Shown in pieces: positions 30,985 to 54,178 of a DNA stretch of 64,000 nucleotides. Below the pieces are notes generated by a model, which saw only the letters and a program-made list of their open reading frames with translations, had not been told where the DNA came from and searched no databases. Location: assembly GCA_012862575.1 (NCBI GenBank), contig BLSF01000017.1, positions 310,001 through 374,000 of the forward strand. Reading direction: 5' to 3'. This DNA comes from Parietichytrium sp. I65-24A (lineage: Eukaryota; Sar; Bigyra; Thraustochytrida; Thraustochytriidae). The translations under genes were made by a program, and so were the position numbers. The stretch's first letter is position 1, and every line of letters begins with the position of its first letter.

Positions 30985-31764
30985 ATGGGAGCGGGGGAAA
31001 CGCTTGCGGTTTGCGTGACCAACCGCATCCCAGTCGCGGAAGGGCACGAAGAGGAGTTTGAAGACCGCTTCTCGAACAGGATTCATCTGGTGGACAAGGC
31101 CACGGGGTTCCTGCGGAATGAGGTGCACAGGCCGCGGCCGATGAGGTTCTCGCACGAGACCATGCGCTGGGAGCCTGTGCGAGACGAGAAGGCATACTAC
31201 GAGGTGAAGACTTGGTGGAGATCGATGAAGGATTTCGAGGGCTGGACGCGCAGCAAGGAGTTTGCGGAGGCGCACAACAATCTGCCGCCGAAGGAAATGT
31301 TCGCGGGGGCTTCGCATATTCAGGTCAACGAAGTGTTCTTGTCGACGGATCTGATCCAGAAGCGCATTTCCCTGGACGACCTCGCAAAATATTGCGGGGA
31401 AAATGGTCGCCCAATATACATTGCAATCTGTGGCAAAGTATTTGACGTCAGTGAAAGTTCCGGATTTTATGGAGCGGGCGGAGGGTACCATGTCTTCGCT
31501 GGCAAGGATGCGTCCCGCGCGCTTGCGAAGGGACATCTTGATGAAAAGCAAGTCAGTGATCGACCTGGCGACATTTCTGATCTCAGTGCAGTTGAAATGG
31601 AGAAGCTTGAAGGCTGGCTGGACAGGTTTGAGAGTAAATATCCATGTGTAGGGCATTTGGATACCGCGAAGGTGGAGGCGGATACCTTGCAAAAGAGGTC
31701 TGCCAAGCCAATCAAGCAGCCTCGGGCGTACAAGAAAATGGTCACTTTAAAGCCCAAGCTTTAA
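30985..31764 (+). CDS. Fusion of IsdG/HmoA-like ABM heme monooxygenase and MAPR (cytochrome-b5-like) heme-binding domain
   Basis: Predicted soluble heme-handling enzyme, 259 residues from ATG 30985. Residues 6-117 are an ABM ferredoxin-like domain aligning with bacterial IsdG: N13 in VTNRIPV, W78 in WWRSMKDFEGW, and H97 in FAEAHNN fall at the positions of the IsdG catalytic Asn, Trp and His. Residues 127-224 are a MAPR/PGRMC domain: SLDDLAKYCG, IYIAICGKVFDVS, GGGYHVFAGKDASRALAK and the C-terminal WLDRFESKYPCVGHL. Y168 matches the heme-ligating Tyr of PGRMC1. Unlike PGRMC there is no transmembrane helix. Family knowledge: IsdG types cleave heme to release iron; MAPR proteins bind heme. The joint function, heme capture and cleavage, is inference. 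The C-terminal tail is Lys-rich. Confidence 0.85.
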   Translation: MGAGETLAVCVTNRIPVAEGHEEEFEDRFSNRIHLVDKATGFLRNEVHRPRPMRFSHETMRWEPVRDEKAYYEVKTWWRSMKDFEGWTRSKEFAEAHNNLPPKEMFAGASHIQVNEVFLSTDLIQKRISLDDLAKYCGENGRPIYIAICGKVFDVSESSGFYGAGGGYHVFAGKDASRALAKGHLDEKQVSDRPGDISDLSAVEMEKLEGWLDRFESKYPCVGHLDTAKVEADTLQKRSAKPIKQPRAYKKMVTLKPKL

Positions 31765-42505: not shown

Positions 42506-43095
42506 GTTTTCTTCCTGACGGTGTTGCCTCGATCTTTCCGGAACTCCTGCGCTGCGGGAAAGTGGAGGAAAAATAAGGCAGTTAGATTACGACCAAACTT
42601 CAGAATTCAGGATTCAGGTCGAACAACAGCCACGGGCCAGACGCGTCGATGACACGGGCGATATACAGTCACCAGACGTCGCCAGCACCAAAGGACTCTT
42701 GTGCTGATGAGAGATGGTGACAAATTCTTGACCGATCGCACGCACCAGGGTCCAGATTCTTTCCAACCTTGACTTTGGGAGAATAGACAGCAAGATTCTC
42801 ACAGATGTGGGTGGTGTTTCGAGTGGCCGGTGAGAACTCCACAAAACCCGAACAAAAACAATCTCTACCAGTTTGAAACAGGAAAATCTCCCGAGTCAGA
42901 ACTCAAGTGAGCAAGTGAGACCGGTGTGCGCCAGATTTAACTAGTGCAAACCAAACAAAAGAAATCCTTTCTGCTTCACGTCGTCTCCAACACCAAGTCT
43001 CCAACCAGCAACCCACACTGCTCCCACAAAGCCACCACCGAGCGACCTTGCCCAACAGTGCAGTGCGTCAGCGTTGTAGTACGGCCACCAGCACG

Positions 43096-43106
43096 GTACT
43101 GAGTAC
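43096..43106. promoter_or_regulatory. Palindrome GTACTGAGTAC upstream of histidine phosphatase gene
   Basis: Exact copy of the recurring palindrome, about 590 bases upstream of ATG 42505 on the minus strand. Confidence 0.4.
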
Positions 43107-46100
43107 GTGGTCCTTTTCCGTGTCTTTCGCCCGTGTCCTCCCAACAACCCCAACAGTCGAAGCCTTCAATCTCACCTTTCCTGGATCGCTGAGGGCGGTG
43201 GGGGTGTGTGTCTGTCGACGCAAGGGAAAGAAAGAAATGATCGACCACTTTCCAAAGCTAGTTGCTGTAGCGCTGCGCTAGCTCGAGAGCTAGCTCCCGA
43301 CGTGGCAGGAGGCTGGACACGTCACTCTTTTGATACTTTGACTTCTTATTCGCAAGCTGGCAAAAGACCGAAATAAAATGATGAAACCGAACTGAGATAG
43401 ACGCGAGCGCGCGGCCTTGCAGTTGCCGATGCATCGGGTCTCTCCAAGTCCATCATCCTCCATCCGATGAATAGTAAGTACATATACTCCAATGGGGATG
43501 CATGCGACCAACAGCACTGCAGGTCCTTCCTCGCTGCTTCGTAACGCTGGGAAAGCGCCGGTTCGCTGGACCGCAAGAGCTGTCGACGCGACCAACTGAC
43601 GAGATCTGAGTTCTGAATTACGCAACCGCGCGGAACCCGGCTTCTTCACATCCGTTCGCTAGAGACCTGTGTGCCATTGTAACAGCATTCATGTGCCCAT
43701 TATGCGCTATAAGCGGCTGCAATTCCTGTGCTCTCTTCTTCTTCATATTCTTCTTTTGCTGCTGCTGCTGCTGCTGCGACATTTGCACATGCTTCTTGTT
43801 CTCCCTTTCCGCGTGGCTCGATTCCAGCTCTCTTCCTTCACTTCGAGCAAGTAAAATCTATACTTTTTATAATTTTTATACACCGTTCCACATTCTCGAA
43901 ACAGTTTAATTTTTTCATTTTCCTGGTTCTACGAGTTCTGTATAACCGAGCTCTCTATTTTAATACCAACCCTAACAGATCTATCACTCCGAATGTATCT
44001 TATCGTGCGTTTAAGACATTGCTATATCATTGGAAGGTAATAGAGGTCATTAGGGGCCCAGAGAACGCTTCGCTTGTGCCGAAATCGAAACGCAAGTGAC
44101 GTCAGCTGATGTCAGTGGAAGTTGATAGGAGAGAGTAGTAGATCTGAGGGATGGTAAGGAGTGACAGGCCGAGATGAAGTGACGCGTTGCGGAGGCTGTA
44201 TCACAGTGGAGGAAGAGTAGGATTGAGATGATGGATTTTGACCAGTGTGACACTCCAAGCTGTTCTGTAGGGAAAGATCTCTTTGGCTTCATGCTACGCC
44301 GCCATTCTCCACCTGAAACAGAGACACTTAGTCTATAGTAGATAGGTCTACACTTTTTCAAAACACGCACGCGCGCCGCGTCATTACTGTATGCGGTAAT
44401 TTCAGCATAACCCTCTTTCCTGTGTAGCATTGTGTGCACATCGTTCTCAAAAGCTTCAGCCAACCGCCTCTTGGAGGGGGGTTGTCTTGACATAGCCGAT
44501 TTCTTATTTGCGTCCTACTGCGAACGAGTAATTAAAAATGTCGCCCAAAAAATGGTGAGCCTCCCTTTATCACGCGAAAAACGTTTGAGATGTTTACGCT
44601 TCCGTTCTCCGTCTCCGAAACCTTACCGCGTCTTAACAATCACTACTACAGAGTGGTGATCAGAATCTGGATCGAGTCTTATGGTCTCGCTTGTAGTGTG
44701 CTATGACAGTCTCTACTCGAAAAGGAAAAAAGAAGAATCAGGAGAAAGAAGGAAGTACTTCGTGACGGATTCTGAGGCGCACAGAAGAAGTCAAGAGTTG
44801 TGAGGCTGGGATGCGTATTCGCAATTAGGTGGTGTGTTAGGAGTTAAGAGGTGGAGGGTGCCATTCGGTGCGTGCATCGCAGAAGTTTTGCGTATCGATT
44901 GAAACCTCAGAGTCCACTTCTGTGTGAGGGAATCTGAAAGATTGTGAGGGGTTGAAAGATTGCGATGATCGTCTCACCGCGGTTCGCATTGTGCACCCCC
45001 CTATACAGTCGACTAATAAATATTAATAGCGATATATACAGAAGCCAAACGCCACGAAGAACTCGCTAGCTATTAGCCTCCTGAACGTCAATCCAGAATC
45101 TGGGTTTATTTCCTTGCAGAGGGCGAACAACATGCACTTGTTTTCTCCGGACAAGTTGCTAATTGGAAATTGCTGAAGGAAAAAGACGGTGTGCTTGTCG
45201 CCTGCTTGTTTGTTTGCGGCGGGCAAGCGATCATGGACTATGTGAAATACAGACATCTTGGGAATTTGCACCGCTTCCGGGTTCTCTTGCCTTGTTCTCT
45301 CTGCCAGAATCTACGCGGTGTGTTAGCTCTTAGCTTTTAGCTATCATGAGTCAAGTCAATTCCAATTGGAATAAAAGCGCCTCTCATTTGGCACGCAAAC
45401 CTTTGTGTGAGGAGGGCGGTGCGGGCGTGAGGGTCGGAACCTTGCGAGAAGGAAGCATTAAAAATCTACGAGGAAATATAGAATCCCGCGCTTGTCGGAG
45501 CCTGACTCTGTCAGACAAAAATGGCCAATCCTTCTCGTTTCAGTCAATCGATATCTTTGCCTGCAGGGGAGCCCTAGTGCCAGGTTCTATTTATCGAGAT
45601 ATTTATCTTTCCCTGAGCTGGTTGAGAAAGCAAAAGAAAGACTTTGAGCGCCGGTGAAGCGATCGCAACTTTCATCAAGAGTCCGCAGCGCCGCACACGT
45701 CGCCAAACTGTTCATGGAAGGGAGGAACGAAGGGATGGGATGGAAAAAAAAAAAAAGAAATCAAGACGAACCTCGACGGTTGTAAAAGCGAGGCAACATT
45801 CTCTCTCCTGACATATGTCTAACAGACTTCAGATTAATATTTCAGAAATGCTCATCTTCGTTCCTCCGAGAGCCTCTGAGTCTAGGCCGAGCGCATATCA
45901 ACGCAGTTGCGAGAGGTCTTTCGAGAACCCGGAACAGAAAGAAAGAAGGCTTTCGTTGCACTAAGTTACATGTAGGTCAAATTTTGACAGCACCGTCGAT
46001 CACCGAAGATTCCAGAGGCTTCTGGATCGAGTTTGCTAGCGCTTTGAAATGAATGGATGCAAGCGAGCAATTTAAACACCTTGCAACGCCAGAATTTCAG

Positions 46101-49100
46101 AATCCAGAAGTCCTGTCAAGCAGAGCGTTTGGAGCAAGCAAGTGCTTTGCTGACCGCTGTATTGCGGGCCAGTCCGCCAGTCCCTCGGTCCCCGCAGCGA
46201 CGTAGGCGGTCAACTCTGGCGATGTGTGTCCAAGCTTGGTACAAGTGATAAGATGGAAGGAAGAGAAGGAGGAGGGTAGGCAGGAAAGAGAGAGAAAGAG
46301 CGCTGCTGAGAGAACGAGCCTCGCTTCACAGCCCTTTCGCACTTGGAAGTCTTAAGTTGTGCGCCTCACGAGCGGCGTGTTGAAGTTTAAGTAGCACGAG
46401 TTTATGCTTATCGCTAGTGCCGCTAGACTGTTCATGTAAGGGAAGGAAGCATGGGAGGAAGATACTATTGGCCTTCCACCGAACTGATATTTTGCTGGGC
46501 GTGAGAGAACGAGAGCAGCCCAGGTGAACCTTCAAATTGGCGATATGAGAACATCGACCTCGAATTCTGTAAGTGAAAGTTCTGTGGGATGCGAGCCCCG
46601 CAAATGCCGCGTTCCGACGCAGTGTAAAAAGCCTGAGGATTTTGCCAAGTTGAGCGTTGGCAAAAACGCACGGGTACTGAGTAACGTGTCAAGCACATTG
46701 TTGTTGTGGATAAGTGCTGGCTGCCGAGAAGATCTACCATGATTTGAACGCCTCCTGGCCACTGGTTCTCTGGCTCCTCGAACAATCCAGAATCATGAAT
46801 TCGGAAAGTTTTTATGTTTTTTGATTGACATCTGGGTGCATCTGGGTCTTTATTTTATCTCCTCGACGCGCATTCGAATCTGCACGGATTATATTTCCAT
46901 TCTTCAGTGCGCCAGATTCCAAGACAAAATTCGCAGTGATTCAAATTCGAAGCGAAAAAGGCCATTCCTAGATCACCCAACAAAAGTTGCTAACTTTCGG
47001 AAAGACAAAAGCATTGACACATTTATAAAAGGCATCTTGTGAGTTGTATAGCTCACTGCGTTCAAGGAAGACATTTTGCAACGGCTTGCCTGCCTTCATT
47101 TCTAACAAACACGCTTGAAGGTAATACGGTACCAGTGCTCAGTTCCCAGCCCACTTGGTACGCTCCCGAGCGTCATCTGGCCTACTATATCTATGATACT
47201 TCTCAGCATGTGCGAAAGACCTGAATTCTGAATTCTGAATTGTGAATTGTGAACGAAAGAAACCAGTATTATGAATTCACTGTCAGAAAGAATGCAGAGT
47301 TGAGAAGATTTTAGCTGAGGTCGTTAGGTCGCTTGGCCTCACATGAGTTAGAACATTTGCCAGGTTAAAGCTACACGTAGAAGGGCCTTCACTCCTCCAG
47401 GAATTGTCCTGTGTTGGCACAAGGCAGGAAATTTCTCCCCCTACGGCTCGTCTCCGTAAGCCTCACATAGACGGTTTCTTAGGGACCGTCGAGAAGCGGG
47501 ATGATGGTGAGGGCCGGTAAGGCCAGTAGGGCTGTCCGTAAGACGAAGAGGAGAAAGAAGGGAGAAGGTTTCCTGTTGGGACTCCAGGAGAAGGAAGGGG
47601 GAAAGAGTGAGAATTTTTGGTGTGTTGAAGCAGATGGACCGCCTGTTTCGCCTCGTCACCGCCGCGTCACAAGTCCATTTCCAGTTTTATAGACTAGTTG
47701 TGGAATGTAGAACTGACTGATTTACGAGAGAAGGCCAGGCGTACCGGACAAGGGAAATTACCCGCTGCCGAAACTTTCGATGTGAATTCTCACTCCTCAG
47801 CACCCAAGATCGGCAGGTCAGACCAACCGAGTGCGTGGTACGAGTATACCTATTGCTGTACATTCTGGGTCTTCTGGCCAAGTCTTCATTGATCGAGTGA
47901 GAAATTTTAATTAGATAGAACAAGTTGTTTTGTGCACACAAGGCGGTCTGAGACGACCGATCTTCACCGTCAGTCTTGGCGACTCGGAGACCTGAATCCT
48001 GACTTGTGAATTCTGACGTGCCTGCAATTCGCACAAGTCTTGACCGCGAGTTCTCAATTGTGCGTTTTCTGAATCTTTGCCCGGCATCCACCAGGCATTT
48101 GAAGCGATGGAGTTAGTTTCATAAAACGGTTCTCGGGGAGGGGAACCGGTGCTCTAACACTTGTTCAAAACCAAGCTAGTGTCGCGACAACATGGCTGTG
48201 TGAACCATCGAGGTCATCGATGGTCATCGTCGTCATCGCCACCAGCTCTTCACTGCAACATTTTGAATTACTTTTGTATCGGGTGTACTTGTCTGACAGT
48301 GAACTCGCAGTCAGTTCACTCGTGCCACCGGTACTGGTACGCCACCGACACTGGACAAATGGGAGACCAACGTGTTCTCTACTTGGCATAGCATCCCGAT
48401 TATGATGACACTCACTGTAACGTAATTCTGTTGCCCCCACTTACTTTCCACAGTAAGCAGTTAAGCATTGAGTGATACACACTACCTTTGCCATAACCAT
48501 CCACTATGCTCTGCTTATGGATAGCGGGACTCAAGGCATTCATTAAATTAATAAGAAGAAAGAAGGGGTCGTTCAATATATAGGCAGTACAGTGAGCCTC
48601 CAGGTGCAAAACAACGGGTGTCTCTCCTATGGCGGTACAAGCATATCTATGAAAGGGGAGACGCTTCTGCTCGGACAAGTCGGGAAAAGAGACTCACTCC
48701 TTCCTCCTCCCTCGTTGCACTCCTACTCCCATGCAGTACCTGCAGGATGTAATGCGAAGCATGAACCTCAGGGTTTATGCTAGCCGTGCTACTTTGCCCC
48801 CCCCTTCGACTCTTACCGGAGCCCTTACAGCACCTGTGCTCCTCGCAGTTGCTTGCTGGGTGACCTCAGTGAGGAGAAGGAAGGAAATAGGCCGGTGTCC
48901 TAGTACTCGTCATTATCATCCGCTATGGGTGCAAAGAGTTCGGCTAATGAAGCGAGGGCCGGGGTCTTATGTTGAATTTAGACCTCTGACTAGTGAGTCA
49001 GAGGTAGAATTGTCTGGAATAAACTCGAAGACGTAGCTCCGCATAGAACGAAGAACGAAGGAGGGAAAACTCGGCTCAAAAGAGCGAATCATCGTCGTCG

Positions 49101-50076
49101 ACGCAGGATGGAACGAGAGGGATCGGCCAACTATTTTCACGCCAGTCAGCCTCGCTGCGGTCAGAATCTCTCCATCCTACAGGTGTGATAGTCAACAGCC
49201 TAGTCTCTTACGGATCCCCATAAGAGTGCTGGGCTAAATGCGAGTTCGCCGCACATAGGAGGGCCTACCAGGATCACGCACTCTGTAAGGAAATACTGAA
49301 GGGAGAAAGAGCTGTCCAAAGCGGCACAGTTTGATGATGACGGGGCGAGCGAGAAGCAGACGTCTCGATATTTTTTCGAGATTTTGCTGCACTCAAGATC
49401 AGGTCCGGAAATGGATTTTTACACCCAGGGTTTTCTGCCTGCCTCTCCTCACAGACTCTTGAAACGTTTTGAATGTTTCAACAAATTATACCATTCCTCA
49501 CTCACTCACAAAGCTCTCACTGCCCTCGCACGCCCCTCTCTTCCTGTCGCTCAAGAATGTAGAGCAGAACGACGACGATGATTTTTGGGAGGGGATAAAT
49601 TGAGAGACAAGAAACTTTTATTGGCCCGAAGAAATGTTTTGGTGTTGGCCTTAGGTTCTACTTGTGCACCACTCCTTCGCCCTAGAACCCTCGACGTCAT
49701 TCGAATTTATTTCGCAACCTGCTCTCTCTCTGTCTCTCTCTCTCTTTGTCTCTGTTTCTGTTTCTGGCCGCTCTTTTCAGTTTCTTGAAGCCTTTGAGCA
49801 TCGCTTGGAAGGGCCTGAATTGCGGCTGACTGAATATAAAAGAATGAATGACTTGGTTGCCGTGACGTCGATGTCAATATCAGGCTCCTGAATGCTGATA
49901 ATCGCTCAAGGAATGCGGAAACTCAGAAATGCGCGACAGAGGCTGGCCGATTGACCGCTGGGAAATTCTTTCATTCTTAGCTGAGACTGAGTGGTCAGAT
50001 TTCAGCTCATCTCTCACCTGAGCTGGCTAGTGCACGCACATTCTTCGTTCGGGGCGCAAAGCGGCAGAGGGGAGAG

Positions 50077-50101
50077 GGAGGGAGGGAGGGGGGGAGGGAG
50101 G
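50077..50101 (+). other. G-rich tract, candidate G-quadruplex
   Basis: Repeated GGGA with one longer G run, about 700 bases upstream of the reductase-cyclase gene. Confidence 0.5.
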
Positions 50102-50789
50102 AACGATGGAAAAACAGAGGAAAAGAAAAAATAAAGAAAGAATAAAACTATCAAAAATCAAAATGAAAGACGACTGGGAAGATTTGATTTTGGTCAGCAA
50201 GATATTTCTTCTTCTTTCTTTCCCCGGCCTCCTTCTCTTTCCCGGTGATGCACTTCATGATCGTCTCCGCTGACCAGGCAGGTACGCTAAGTTCGCTAGT
50301 CCATAATAAGGCTCGCCAGCGCCGCTCTAGCACTCCCTCTTTACCTCGTCCCAGGCTTTTCCGCCTGTATCACTCCGAAGCAGTCCTACCGGCAGCTACG
50401 AAGCTCATATGCACCGCTGCCCTCCCTTTTTCTCGAAGAGGGATTGCTAATCTTTAACCTAGCCAGGGCCCAGCGGGAGGAGGCAGGGGCGACGGAGGAG
50501 GAGAGGGAAGGTGAGCGGGGAGAAGGAAGGAGCAGGCCTAGTTGCATCCAATACGCAAGGCAAAAGAGGAGCACGACGCAAGGGAATTATTCCAGGAGCG
50601 GGGCAACTTTGATATTGAGTCGAAGGTTCGAAAGGTTCGAGATTGGAGTTGAAGCAGAACCCAAACTCGAGCGAAGAAGCAAAACAAAAGCAACAGCAAA
50701 ACCCGAACATTGAGCAAGTCCGAGACGCGAACCTGCCCAAGTACAAGTATTACCCTTTGAAGATACAGAGCAAGAAGAACCCAGCGACC

Positions 50790-53186
50790 ATGGCGAAAGA
50801 ACAAGTGATTGCGGAGCAGCAGCAGAACGCAGAGCACGACAAGATGCTCAGCTCTAAGATGCGCCAAAAGATCATGTCCCCATCGGACTCGTACGATTCG
50901 TCGGAGGACAAGAGCGACGAGATGTCCCTTTCGGACTCGGAGAGCAAAACTAACTCGAGCTCCAAGACACAGCCAGTGGCGTACAAGCGGAATCGTCAGA
51001 GGCTTACCAAGCCAGCTACCACCATCCCTCTCGTGGGCTTTGGAACCTTCAACGAGTTCAAAGATAACGAGAAGGTCGGAGAAGCCGTCGAAGATGCGAT
51101 CGCTTCCGGCTACCGCATGATTGATTGCGCCCGCCTCTACGGCAACGAGAAGGAGGTCGGAGCAGCACTCCAGCGCTCTTTCAAATCCGGTGTCGTCAAC
51201 CGCGAGGACTTGTACATTGTCTCCAAACTCTGGTGCTGGGACGCCGCTCCTGAAGATGTCGAGAAGGCATGCCGCGCTACCCTCGCTGACCTCGAGGTCG
51301 ACTACCTCGACAGCTACATGATGCACTGGCCTGTACAGATGACCGCGGACTCCAAGCTCGCATCAACTGAGTACGGAGGAAGCTTCGACATGAAGATTGT
51401 ACACAGCGGCGACAACGAGAAGATTCTCGAGACCTATAAAGCTATGGAGAAGCTCGTGGAGAAAGGCCTTGTTCGCACCCTCGGAGTGAGCAACTTTGGC
51501 ATTGGCCGACTTGAGGAGCTCCTGCGCAAGTGCAAGATCAAGCCTACTGTTGTGGAGGTCGAGATGCACCCATACCTCGCGCAGCCACGCCTTCTTGAGT
51601 TTTGCCAGTCCCAGCGCCTCAACGTTATCGCCTACTCTCCACTTGGCAAGGTTGGCTACAGGAACCCTGGCGACCCAAGCCTTCTTGACGACCCAATCGT
51701 CAAGCAAGTTGCAGAGGAGACTGGCCGCTCTGCTGGCCAGGTATTGCTCCGCTGGGGAGTCCAGCGTGGAGTCAGCGTGATTCCAAAGAGCCTTCGCCCT
51801 TCTCGCATCTTGGAGAACCGCGACGTCCTGGACTGGCAGCTTTCCCCACACCACATGGAGATGCTCAACTCCTTGGACCGCGGATTCCGCTTCTGCACCA
51901 ACCCATGGTTCGACATTCATGAGGACTGCGAGTACCGCGTGGGAGCGGGCCACCCTGTGTGCCAGCCAAAGCGCACCCCATGCTTCGTGGACAAGAACGG
52001 CGGCTACAGGAATAAGTTTGAGCGCGATGGAAAGCTTTTGAGCTCTGAGATCCTCATCCAAAAGGGTCTGCTCAAGAACCTTGCAAAGGTGGCTCGCGAT
52101 GTCATCCCTGTGTCCTCCCAGGAGGCTAACAACTATCTCGTCACTGACACCTTTGTCAATGAGCATTACGGCGAGATGGTCCTCGAAGGCTTCCGCGAGG
52201 CAGGCATGAAGTTCGAAAAGATTGTGGTTCCTGCAGCAGCAATCGATGAGTCTGGAGAGCCATCTGGTGAACCATTCAAGAACAAAGAGGTCTTCCACAG
52301 CTGCGTCGATCAGATCCTTGAGCAAGGAATCTCCAAGCACAGCTGCATCGTCAGTCTTGGAGGCGGAGTTGTCAACAACATCTGCGGTGTCATGGCCTCT
52401 ACCCTCTATCGCGGTATCAAGCTGGTGCACATCACAACCACCTCCATGGGTATGTTGGATGCTGCCATCGACTTCAAGCAGGCATTCAACCACCACTGCG
52501 GCAAGAACCTTATCGGAGCTTACTACCCTGCAGACTTGATCGTCATTGACCCTGACTGCCTTGCAACTCTCGGCGAGAGGCATCTTCTCAACGGAATCGC
52601 AGAGGCCCTCAAGCATGGGCTTACCCAGTCCTGGGAGCTCACGAACGCTATTGTCGAGCCAATCCGCAAGCACGGATCCAAGATTCTCCGCGACTCGGAC
52701 TACCTCGAGAAGCTTTGCCGCGAAACCATTGAGGTCAAGGTTCCAACCCTCACCCATTACAACGAGTCGGACTTCAACGAAATGGTGCCTCAATACGGCC
52801 ACGCTGCTGCCCACGCCATTGAGCATCTCTCCTGGCACGACGGCCACTCTCCACTCCTTCATGGAGAGGCCGTTGCTATCGGAATGTGTGTGACCGCAGA
52901 GATTGCGCACATTCTTGGCAAGTGCACCAAGGAAGTTGTCGAACAGCACTACGACCTCGTCGGAGCTACTGGTCTGCCAACCCTTGTCCCTGCGGACATG
53001 GACGTGGAGGAGATCCTCAAGACCATGTGCTACGACAAGCACTTCGTGCAGATGCCAGTCATGGGCCTCGCCATTGAGATTGGCAACATGGCGTGCGACC
53101 AGGAGAACGGCTCGTATGCCTTCGCCATCACCCTTGACCAGATGAAGGAGGGCTTCAAGCGCAACATGGCTCGTCACAGCAAGTAA
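50790..53186 (+). CDS. Aldo-keto reductase fused to 2-deoxy-scyllo-inosose-synthase-like sugar phosphate cyclase
   Basis: Bifunctional enzyme, 798 residues from ATG 50790 (context GCGACCATGG; frame open upstream only to a TTG). Residues 1-72 are charged and disordered. Residues 75-375 are an NADPH aldo-keto reductase with the full tetrad D112 (MIDCA), Y117 (LYGNE), K146 (SKLW), H179 (MHWP). Residues about 420-790 are a dehydroquinate-synthase-fold cyclase: GGG 524-526, the KQAxN motif at 563-567, GKNLIGAYYP, and zinc ligands E605, H671 and H691. The KQA-N motif and KLVHITTT-x(5)-D pattern match bacterial 2-deoxy-scyllo-inosose synthases (which cyclise glucose-6-phosphate) better than dehydroquinate or epi-valiolone synthases. 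The reductase may reduce the cyclic ketone to a deoxyinositol; an osmolyte role is inference. Strong codon bias suggests high expression. Confidence 0.9.
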   Translation: MAKEQVIAEQQQNAEHDKMLSSKMRQKIMSPSDSYDSSEDKSDEMSLSDSESKTNSSSKTQPVAYKRNRQRLTKPATTIPLVGFGTFNEFKDNEKVGEAVEDAIASGYRMIDCARLYGNEKEVGAALQRSFKSGVVNREDLYIVSKLWCWDAAPEDVEKACRATLADLEVDYLDSYMMHWPVQMTADSKLASTEYGGSFDMKIVHSGDNEKILETYKAMEKLVEKGLVRTLGVSNFGIGRLEELLRKCKIKPTVVEVEMHPYLAQPRLLEFCQSQRLNVIAYSPLGKVGYRNPGDPSLLDDPIVKQVAEETGRSAGQVLLRWGVQRGVSVIPKSLRPSRILENRDVLDWQLSPHHMEMLNSLDRGFRFCTNPWFDIHEDCEYRVGAGHPVCQPKRTPCFVDKNGGYRNKFERDGKLLSSEILIQKGLLKNLAKVARDVIPVSSQEANNYLVTDTFVNEHYGEMVLEGFREAGMKFEKIVVPAAAIDESGEPSGEPFKNKEVFHSCVDQILEQGISKHSCIVSLGGGVVNNICGVMASTLYRGIKLVHITTTSMGMLDAAIDFKQAFNHHCGKNLIGAYYPADLIVIDPDCLATLGERHLLNGIAEALKHGLTQSWELTNAIVEPIRKHGSKILRDSDYLEKLCRETIEVKVPTLTHYNESDFNEMVPQYGHAAAHAIEHLSWHDGHSPLLHGEAVAIGMCVTAEIAHILGKCTKEVVEQHYDLVGATGLPTLVPADMDVEEILKTMCYDKHFVQMPVMGLAIEIGNMACDQENGSYAFAITLDQMKEGFKRNMARHSK

Positions 53187-53264: not shown

Positions 53265-54178
53265 TTACACTAGGCCGCCATCGACACGTAAGACTTGGCC
53301 GGCTTAGGAAATTTTCCATTTCCATGTTTTCGACAGCAATCAACAGAAATTGCACATTTTGCTCAGTACGAGCTCACTTTAGTAAACTGTCATAACCATA
53401 CTCAAATCATACAACTTCCACTACCATATTCGATTTCTTCCCTTTCCTCTTCTTCGTGCAACATCAAGCGACAGCGGTTGATAAACTTACTTATGTAACC
53501 CGCGTCAGGGGAAAGCAGCAGAAACTCTACTACGCCAGCCACCTCCTCTGGAGTTCCAAGTCTATTCAACGCAATCCCTTTAGACAACTTTTCCTTGTCC
53601 AACTTTGCCGTCATGTCTGTTTCGATGTATCCAGGCTCTATCACGTTCACCCTGATACCTCGCGATGCGACCTCGAGCGCAAGTGATTTGCTGAACCCTA
53701 CAAGGCCTGCCTTGCTAGCTGCGTAAACAGATTGGCCCGCGTTTCCTCTGGACCCCACAACGCTCCCAAGGTTCACAATGCCACCCCCTTTTCCGTGCCG
53801 CATCATCTCGCGAACCGCTGACCTTGCGACGACCATGGGGCCGATCAGATTGAGCGCAATCTGCTCACGGATAAACTCCGGGCGAGCGCGCACAAGCAGC
53901 CCGTCACTCGTTGTTCCAGCAGCGTTTACCACGTATCGCAGCTCCGCCCCTTGCTCGGACGCTGCGCGACGAACGGCATCCTCAACTTGCTCGGGGTCTA
54001 AAATGTCGCATTGAATGGCAAGTATTCGGCCTGCCAGACTCCTTTCCTCTGCCAGAGCCACAGTCTCTTCCGAAGACTTCAACGTGCGGCTCGCCACCGC
54101 AACTGGAACGCCTTGAGAGGCAAGTCTCAGCGCTATGCTTCTGCCAATGCCTCTCCCGCCGGTGACCAGCGCCGCCAT
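53265..54178 (-). CDS. Short-chain dehydrogenase, 3-oxoacyl-ACP reductase type (CBR4/FabG-like), two exons
   Basis: NADPH-dependent ketoreductase, probably for fatty acid synthesis. The coding sequence is 54178-53491 joined to 53302-53265 on the minus strand, giving 241 residues. Unspliced, the frame runs past YI into SKFINRC and loses the family C-terminus; splicing yields YITGQVLRVDGGLV, the expected FabG/CBR4 ending. Other motifs: the NAAG strand end, NLGSVVG with catalytic Ser, YAASK with Tyr and Lys, and IEPGYIETDM. The glycine loop reads TGGRGIG, one residue shorter than the usual TGGSRGIG. NAAGTTSDGLLVR and GNAGQSVYAASKAGLVGFS closely resemble CBR4. No clear targeting peptide. Its 3' end lies 78 bases from the reductase-cyclase stop. 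Confidence 0.88.
53303..53490 (-). other. Intron in CBR4/FabG-like gene
   Basis: A 188-base intron with GTAAGT donor (53490-53485) and CCTAAG acceptor (53308-53303). It interrupts the Thr codon of YITGQ. Support comes from recovering the conserved DGG C-terminus. Confidence 0.85.

Follow-up and report, generated by a model that had tools for sequence, protein, structure and literature searches.

A fused aldo-keto reductase and sugar-phosphate cyclase from a thraustochytrid, a candidate enzyme of deoxyinositol synthesis

We analyzed a 64,000-nucleotide stretch of DNA from the thraustochytrid Parietichytrium sp. I65-24A (contig BLSF01000017.1, positions 310,001 to 374,000 of the forward strand), referred to throughout as the window. 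A gene at 50790-53186 on the plus strand encodes an aldo-keto reductase (AKR) joined to a sugar-phosphate cyclase (SPC) in one polypeptide. This fusion protein is a candidate bifunctional enzyme that would make a reduced deoxy-cyclitol, namely a deoxyinositol (quercitol), a reading to which we assign a probability of roughly 55%.

The fusion gene (50790..53186) is a single open frame of 798 codons plus stop, with no internal stop codon. It begins with the ATG at 50790, in the context ACCATGG, and ends with the stop codon at 53184-53186; the nearest in-frame stop 5' of the ATG lies at 50616, and an alternative TTG start is present at 50643. Approximately the first 76 residues (50790..51017) form an extension rich in Ser, Asp, Glu and Lys, and similarity to AKRs begins at residue 72-78 among the PDB matches listed. 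No targeting peptide was evident by eye in the extension, and the enzyme is probably cytosolic. The AKR domain (51018..51929) was recognized by Pfam (PF00248, Aldo_ket_red, residues 84-363, E 3.8e-50) and carries Asp112/Tyr117/Lys146/His179 and an IPKSxxxxRIxEN motif, the catalytic tetrad and the cofactor motif of this family. An approximate interdomain linker (51930..52022) spans the gap between the AKR similarity and most of the similarity to bacterial cyclases. In the SPC domain (52023..53183), Pfam identified DHQ_synthase at residues 491-599 (E 1.1e-29) and DHQS_C at residues 602-751 (E 8.9e-22). The zinc ligands Glu605, His671 and His691 and the motif KQAFN (563-567) are present, and K563, K572/N573, K608 and K650 are retained. 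At the DNA level, the window contains the pattern KQ[AG]xNxxxGKN a single time, and none of 100 shuffles contains it. An initial annotation of this DNA had described one uninterrupted frame holding the AKR tetrad and a cyclase with three zinc ligands and KQAxN, all of which is confirmed.

An AlphaFold2 model of the cyclase region showed the expected fold with a mean pLDDT (predicted local distance difference test) of 89.9. Foldseek matched this model to dehydroquinate synthase (DHQS), ValA, 2-deoxy-scyllo-inosose synthase (DOIS) and desmethyl-4-deoxygadusol synthase (DDGS) with TM (template modeling) scores by query length of 0.73-0.80 for all alike, among the 50 rows shown; on the model, fold comparison does not discriminate among SPC subfamilies. 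By its predicted fold, three zinc ligands and catalytic Lys/Asn set, the domain belongs to the SPC superfamily. In the full-length model the AKR barrel was not modeled well (mean pLDDT 66.6), and residues 29-91 were of low confidence.

Codon usage in the fusion gene is strongly biased, as had already been noted in the initial annotation. The whole gene has an effective number of codons of 36.8, the lowest of 15 window genes measured, against 51.4-59.5 for the other 14 (a set of which nine were scanned against Pfam, one without match, and a short-chain dehydrogenase/reductase (SDR) against NCBIfam). The AKR half (35.3) and the cyclase half (37.0) are biased nearly equally, which is in keeping with a single gene under a single expression regime. 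The strength of the bias suggests that the enzyme may be abundant, as bulk synthesis of an osmolyte would require.

Among solved structures, the AKR half is closest to animal AKR1 (264 bits, phmmer). The top PDB match is an AKR1A1-type NADP alcohol dehydrogenase, and the best matches are aldehyde and aldose reductases (E 1.9e-77). With these enzymes (AKR1A1 and AKR1B; PDB 4gac, 2alr and 1ads) the fusion shares AKR1 sequence, tetrad and cofactor motif; it differs in having an added SPC and an acidic N-terminal extension. The best bacterial scores were 205 bits on plasmids (among the best 8 of 1225 records) and 204 bits in 200 Pseudomonadota genomes; note that these bit scores come from different programs, phmmer for the PDB and tblastn for the plasmids. 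Judged by sequence, the domain is an AKR1 member by tetrad and cofactor motif, and the AKR half is of eukaryotic type.

Relatives of the cyclase were collected from genome contigs with the DNA pattern KQ[AG]xNxxxGKN..G. This yielded at least 119 loci; in 107 of these 119 the encoded SPC matched the window by phmmer, and the remaining 12 were excluded. Note that KQ[AG]xN relatives are over-represented in such a collection, and that relatives lacking the motif could have been caught in the genome samples only. Rows for DHQS, DOIS, DDGS and 2-epi-5-epi-valiolone synthase (EEVS) came partly from the same genomes and partly from PDB chains. An AKR was absent by tblastn at 1e-6 from the first 119 loci, and over all 187 loci matches appeared only in two loci that had been collected as AKR loci, showing that the search works. 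Elsewhere in the 187 loci examined, the AKR-SPC architecture was not found.

The nearest relatives are eight stand-alone bacterial cyclases with 36.6-40.9% identity to the window cyclase, from Trinickia, Ralstonia, Sulfurovum, Chloroflexi, Bdellovibrionales, Rhodoplanes, Rhodopseudomonas and Bradyrhizobiaceae. We built a quick IQ-TREE of 82 rows, a FastTree of 117 rows and a careful IQ-TREE of 60 rows, the last after leaving out 22 long-branched or redundant rows. In the careful tree, support was 100/100 for EEVS/DDGS, 95/79 for DHQS and 100/99 for a superclade of KQ[AG]xN cyclases. Within the superclade, a DOIS side (94/82) was separated from a sister clade (100/99) holding the window, in which the window cyclase and six of the bacterial cyclases formed a subclade (100/97). 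The quick tree was arranged alike, with support of 99 for the superclade, 93 for the DOIS side, 99 for the sister clade and 98 for the window subclade. FastTree supported the superclade at 0.994 and the window subclade with all eight bacterial rows (nine rows) at 0.996, and a Patescibacteria branch joined the sister clade weakly (0.43). Three groupings of the window were rejected in approximately unbiased (AU) tests: p was 1.7e-50 for DHQS, 0.006 for the DOIS side and 0.028 for EEVS/DDGS, where the rejection was weakest. Thus the initial annotation, which placement among dehydroquinate or valiolone synthases would have contradicted, held in this respect. A DHQS identity was discarded on its position outside the DHQS clade and on its score with the NCBIfam aroB model TIGR01357 (212.8 bits, cut-off 305), and a DOIS identity on its position outside the clade with BtrC. 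An EEVS/DDGS identity was likewise discarded, the window lying outside that clade and lacking Met/Tyr at position 250 and Pro at 275. By these trees, the window cyclase is in a subfamily with the eight bacterial cyclases, within the clade sister to DOIS. Members were found in four bacterial phyla; no name, function or characterized member was found for the subfamily of the window and the eight.

The active site sets this subfamily apart. Residues are numbered after Aspergillus DHQS (Arg264, Asn268 and Lys356). Glu264, Gln268, His356 and Phe151 occur together in the window and in 8/8 subclade rows but in 0/108 other SPC rows, and the subfamily signature includes DFKQA. The DHQS rows have Arg264, Asn268 and Lys356 in 12/12 each (divergent L130 left out); the window has none of these, with E664, Q668 and H751 in their place. 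On the DOIS side, position 264 is Ala/Gly in 51/54 rows, 268 is Glu in 51/54 and 356 is Lys in 54/54. BtrC (PDB 2d2x/2gru) and the window share the SPC fold, zinc ligands, KQAxN, GKN, Lys250 and the loss of Arg264, but the window has Gln268 for Glu, His356 for Lys and Glu264 for Ala/Gly, and reads DKHF (Lys750-His751 at 355-356) where the DOIS side has DNK(R). EEVS and DDGS (PDB 4p53, 5tpr), which occur in eukaryotes, have the SPC fold and zinc ligands in common with the window; they form a separate deep clade, with Met/Tyr (5/5 rows) at the position where the window, DHQS and DOIS have Lys250, and Pro (5/5 rows) for the His275 retained in the window. In DHQS, Arg264 binds the carboxylate of 3-deoxy-D-arabino-heptulosonate 7-phosphate (DAHP). 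Loss of Arg264 with retention of Lys250 speaks against both DAHP and sedoheptulose-7-phosphate and favors a C6 sugar phosphate as the substrate, with glucose not singled out.

These results alter part of the initial annotation, which had filed the cyclase as a DOIS. The KQAxN motif that it took as a DOIS mark also occurs in the sister clade, and the HITTT-like strand is peculiar to the window and says nothing about DOIS, its third residue being Pro in 113 of the 115 other rows and Gly in the remaining 2. At the Asn268 and Lys356 positions the window lacks the residues of the DOIS side, and the AU test speaks against the assignment. Glucose-6-phosphate had been extrapolated from DOIS as the substrate and gains no support from the differing active site. 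The general idea, that the cyclase and its attached reductase make a deoxyinositol, has gained support; the form it had been given, a DOIS acting on glucose-6-phosphate, has not. A bacterial origin of the cyclase half had also been suggested. The half is of bacterial type, as its eight nearest relatives indicate, and its acquisition from bacteria is plausible, but a donor was not found in the genome samples, plasmids, phages or viral contigs. A scan for close relatives of the cyclase alone gave no match in genome contigs or viral contigs, and an alignment scan of the viral contigs gave 13 distant matches only (24-30%). Plasmid matches (40 of 115 records listed) and phage matches (14/14) were at 25-31%, the named ones being DHQS or sedoheptulose 7-phosphate cyclase. 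Matches at E 1e-40 were obtained in 4/398 Pseudomonadota, 2/290 Bdellovibrionota and 48/301 Chloroflexota genomes. This larger bacterial sample contained no closer relative: 161 bits were exceeded only in the three centre genomes, at 247-265 bits, and by a partial match from Bdellovibrionota at 179 bits.

Reductase genes recur beside the bacterial relatives of the cyclase. In the Myxococcota group, a same-strand SDR lies within 300 bp downstream in 28/33 loci, and in 25/25 of those with at least 700 bp of downstream sequence. The corresponding counts on the DOIS side are 1/59 and 1/50 (L103), so that DOIS-side loci nearly all lack an SDR whereas the window cyclase is fused to a reductase. The SDR seeds were those of L040, L046, L060, L091 and the window, so that a match at these four loci was built in and SDRs dissimilar to the seeds could be missed near DOIS genes; Pfam confirmed the SDRs at the four loci. 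In the window subclade, where 19-kb stretches around the cyclase were examined, six of the seven extended loci have an SDR no more than 4 kb away (L166, L167, L168, L170, L172 and, on the opposite strand, L171). These SDRs form one family with 44-72% mutual identity. The eight bacterial cyclases have the four-residue signature (8/8) and the supported clade in common with the window, but they are unfused, and the reductase, where found, is a separate SDR. In Patescibacteria, a zinc alcohol dehydrogenase-like gene lies within 2 kb on either strand in 4/7 loci (Pfam-confirmed at L096). The bacterial cyclase and reductase thus appear to function as a unit, and the protist gene resembles this cyclase-reductase pair, with a fused AKR in the place of the SDR. 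Inositol-1-phosphate synthase, present in 6/16 of the relatives' genomes, was not decisive.

Many of the wider relatives carry a further domain. Nucleotidyltransferase (NTase) similarity lies in the cyclase frame in 25/33 Myxococcota-group and 5/7 Patescibacteria loci, and Pfam confirmed NTase-SPC fusions at L062:2273-4303 and L096:1775-3682. These fusions, for which no name was found, share with the window the clade sister to DOIS and Gln268 (35/36), but have a MobA-like NTase at the N-terminus and lack the window subfamily signature. Near L096, Pfam identified a CDP-alcohol phosphatidyltransferase, an APH-type kinase and a second NTase, and similar genes occur at other Patescibacteria loci. 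The NTase-SPC at L096 hints at a CDP-activated deoxy-cyclitol, perhaps for a phosphatidylinositol-like head group. Within the window subclade, glycosyltransferase genes adjoin at least three of the cyclases, those of L020, L046 and L112, and a gene of the UDP-GlcNAc 2-epimerase family is also near L020. At L166-L168 and L170 (Trinickia, Ralstonia, Rhodopseudomonas, Sulfurovum), cyclase and SDR lie in polysaccharide-like clusters, partly read by eye, which hint at cyclitols in O-antigens or capsules. The window-type cyclases of L017, L050 and L112 (Rhodoplanes, Rhodopseudomonas, Bradyrhizobiaceae) come from kin of photosynthetic bradyrhizobia, whose O-antigen sugar is the inositol-fused bradyrhizose. 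In PMC4743980 the bradyrhizose genes are called unknown and an 11-gene cluster is proposed; bradyrhizose as the product of the rhizobial members is a lead.

In the route that we propose, substrate, product, cofactor use and physiological role would be as follows. The SPC domain, with catalytic NAD+ and Zn2+, would take a hexose 6-phosphate through C4 oxidation, phosphate loss, re-reduction, ring opening and aldol closure of C6 on C1 to a deoxy-inosose. From a hexose 6-phosphate, such a cycle yields a ketone whose ring contains a single CH2, and a quercitol results when this ketone is reduced. The fused AKR, using NADPH, would reduce the deoxy-inosose to the deoxyinositol, and in the thraustochytrid host the product would be (-)-proto-quercitol. 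Stereochemical book-keeping, computed and checked by hand, indicates that glucose-6-phosphate would lead to scyllo- or vibo-quercitol provided that ring closure places the C1 hydroxyl trans to C2. The proto isomer requires the manno (1D; 1S,2R,4R,5S) or galacto (1L; 1R,2S,4S,5R) configuration, or epimerization. When reduction is trans as well, mannose-6-phosphate would give the 1D and galactose-6-phosphate the 1L form, and the identity of the product would therefore narrow down the substrate. If (-)-proto-quercitol is the product, this geometry argues against glucose-6-phosphate, and if (+)-proto-quercitol is 2-deoxy-D-chiro-inositol, the (-) form fits mannose-6-phosphate. In its most specific form, the proposal is that a hexose phosphate (mannose-6-phosphate or another non-gluco sugar) is converted to (-)-proto-quercitol in one polypeptide, bypassing myo-inositol, by an SPC of a bacterial-derived subfamily and a host-type AKR replacing the SDR; this version is possible, though less likely than not. 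The principal compatible solutes of thraustochytrids are reported to be (-)-proto-quercitol and glycine betaine (title of Jakobsen 2007). Elsewhere, D-1,4/2,5-cyclohexanetetrol was putatively identified in a haptophyte (PMC7998644), and a title cited in PMC3721227 names 1,4/2,5-cyclohexanetetrol in a diatom at increased salinity. By its pattern, this compound corresponds to proto-quercitol minus O-3.

The surroundings of the gene are eukaryotic in content: Pfam identified ORC4_C, RabGAP-TBC, PH-SAM and RING domains and PT repeats in an astacin. Long genes without interruption and the PT-repeat proteins suggested a stramenopile, perhaps a thraustochytrid. Twelve window proteins were scanned in all, and of these the ones encoded closest to the fusion are FabG-like (an SDR) and ORC4-like. 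The SDR (53402-54178, minus strand, identified with NCBIfam) lies tail to tail with the fusion. It was rejected as a partner of the cyclase, being FabG-like and only 31-35% identical to the six subclade SDRs; its identity to eight Myxococcota-group SDRs is 29-40%. Upstream of the fusion, the ~8 kb at 42600-50500 contains no ATG-started frame longer than 147 codons. Recurrent gaattctgaatt-like words were seen by eye in this region, which may be regulatory DNA or repeats. At 30985-31764, ABM monooxygenase and cytochrome b5 domains share one frame (Pfam).

Several points weigh against a deoxyinositol-forming fusion. An SDR directly beside the cyclase is characteristic of the Myxococcota group: among the window-subclade loci just 1 of 8 has an SDR within 300 bp, the extended locus L169 has none, and L017, which was not extended, has none within its 8 kb. 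The substrate is extrapolated because no characterized subfamily member was found. AKRs are a promiscuous family, and fusion alone is no proof that the cyclase product is what the AKR reduces. Reduction of the DOIS product would yield scyllo- or vibo-quercitol, not the proto isomer. Finally, the glycosyltransferase neighbors indicate that the bacterial product may be a building block of glycans.

This last observation bears on the alternative that the cyclitol made by the fusion is destined for a glycan or a lipid head group and is not a free solute. The glycosyltransferase and epimerase genes near subclade cyclases would fit such a role, as would the phosphatidyltransferase and kinase beside the NTase-SPC of L096. 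The protist gene itself has only the FabG-like SDR and the ORC4-like gene nearby, and upstream DNA without a long frame, but this is a weak counter-argument, as 12 proteins were scanned and eukaryotic pathway genes need not cluster. The strong codon bias is better suited to bulk synthesis, and we consider a head-group role distinctly unlikely.

The two other alternatives concern the ring that is formed. The cyclase could be a eukaryotic DOIS acting on glucose-6-phosphate, with the AKR reducing 2-deoxy-scyllo-inosose to scyllo- or vibo-quercitol. KQAxN and GKNLxG are common to the window and BtrC, the DOIS side is the sister group of the window's clade, DOIS is the nearest group of known function, and glucose-6-phosphate is abundant. 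Nevertheless, the AU rejection, the Gln, His and DKHF substitutions and the near absence of an adjacent SDR of the sister-clade kind from DOIS-side loci make this unlikely. Very improbable is a C7 cyclitol, made by the SPC from sedoheptulose-7-phosphate or a similar sugar and reduced by the AKR to a valiol- or gadusol-like protectant: the window keeps the Lys and His that EEVS/DDGS rows replace, and the AU test stands against it, albeit less strongly than against the others. Membership of the SPC superfamily speaks for it, as does the protection of some eukaryotes by C7 cyclitols such as gadusol (PMC4426668).

A deoxyinositol-forming fusion would bear on a wider question. Certain trees and marine protists contain quercitols and related deoxyinositols in large amounts, and some marine protists accumulate deoxygenated inositols to counter salt stress. 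The plant quercitol pathway had not been elucidated according to a 2021 review (PMC8919412). Among the matches listed in the open literature, which lacks most subscription papers, we found no eukaryotic quercitol gene and no described eukaryotic enzyme for a deoxyinositol route. A single, strongly codon-biased gene may carry the whole quercitol route, and the question becomes testable. If the proposal is true, the fusion would be the missing enzyme of eukaryotic deoxyinositol osmolytes, and removal of the 3-hydroxyl from its product would give the 1,4/2,5-cyclohexanetetrol reported from a diatom and a haptophyte. The analysis also outlines an unnamed SPC subfamily, within a wider clade coupled to reductases and often to nucleotidyltransferases. 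Carbocycle synthesis by these enzymes would thus extend beyond antibiotics and sunscreens.

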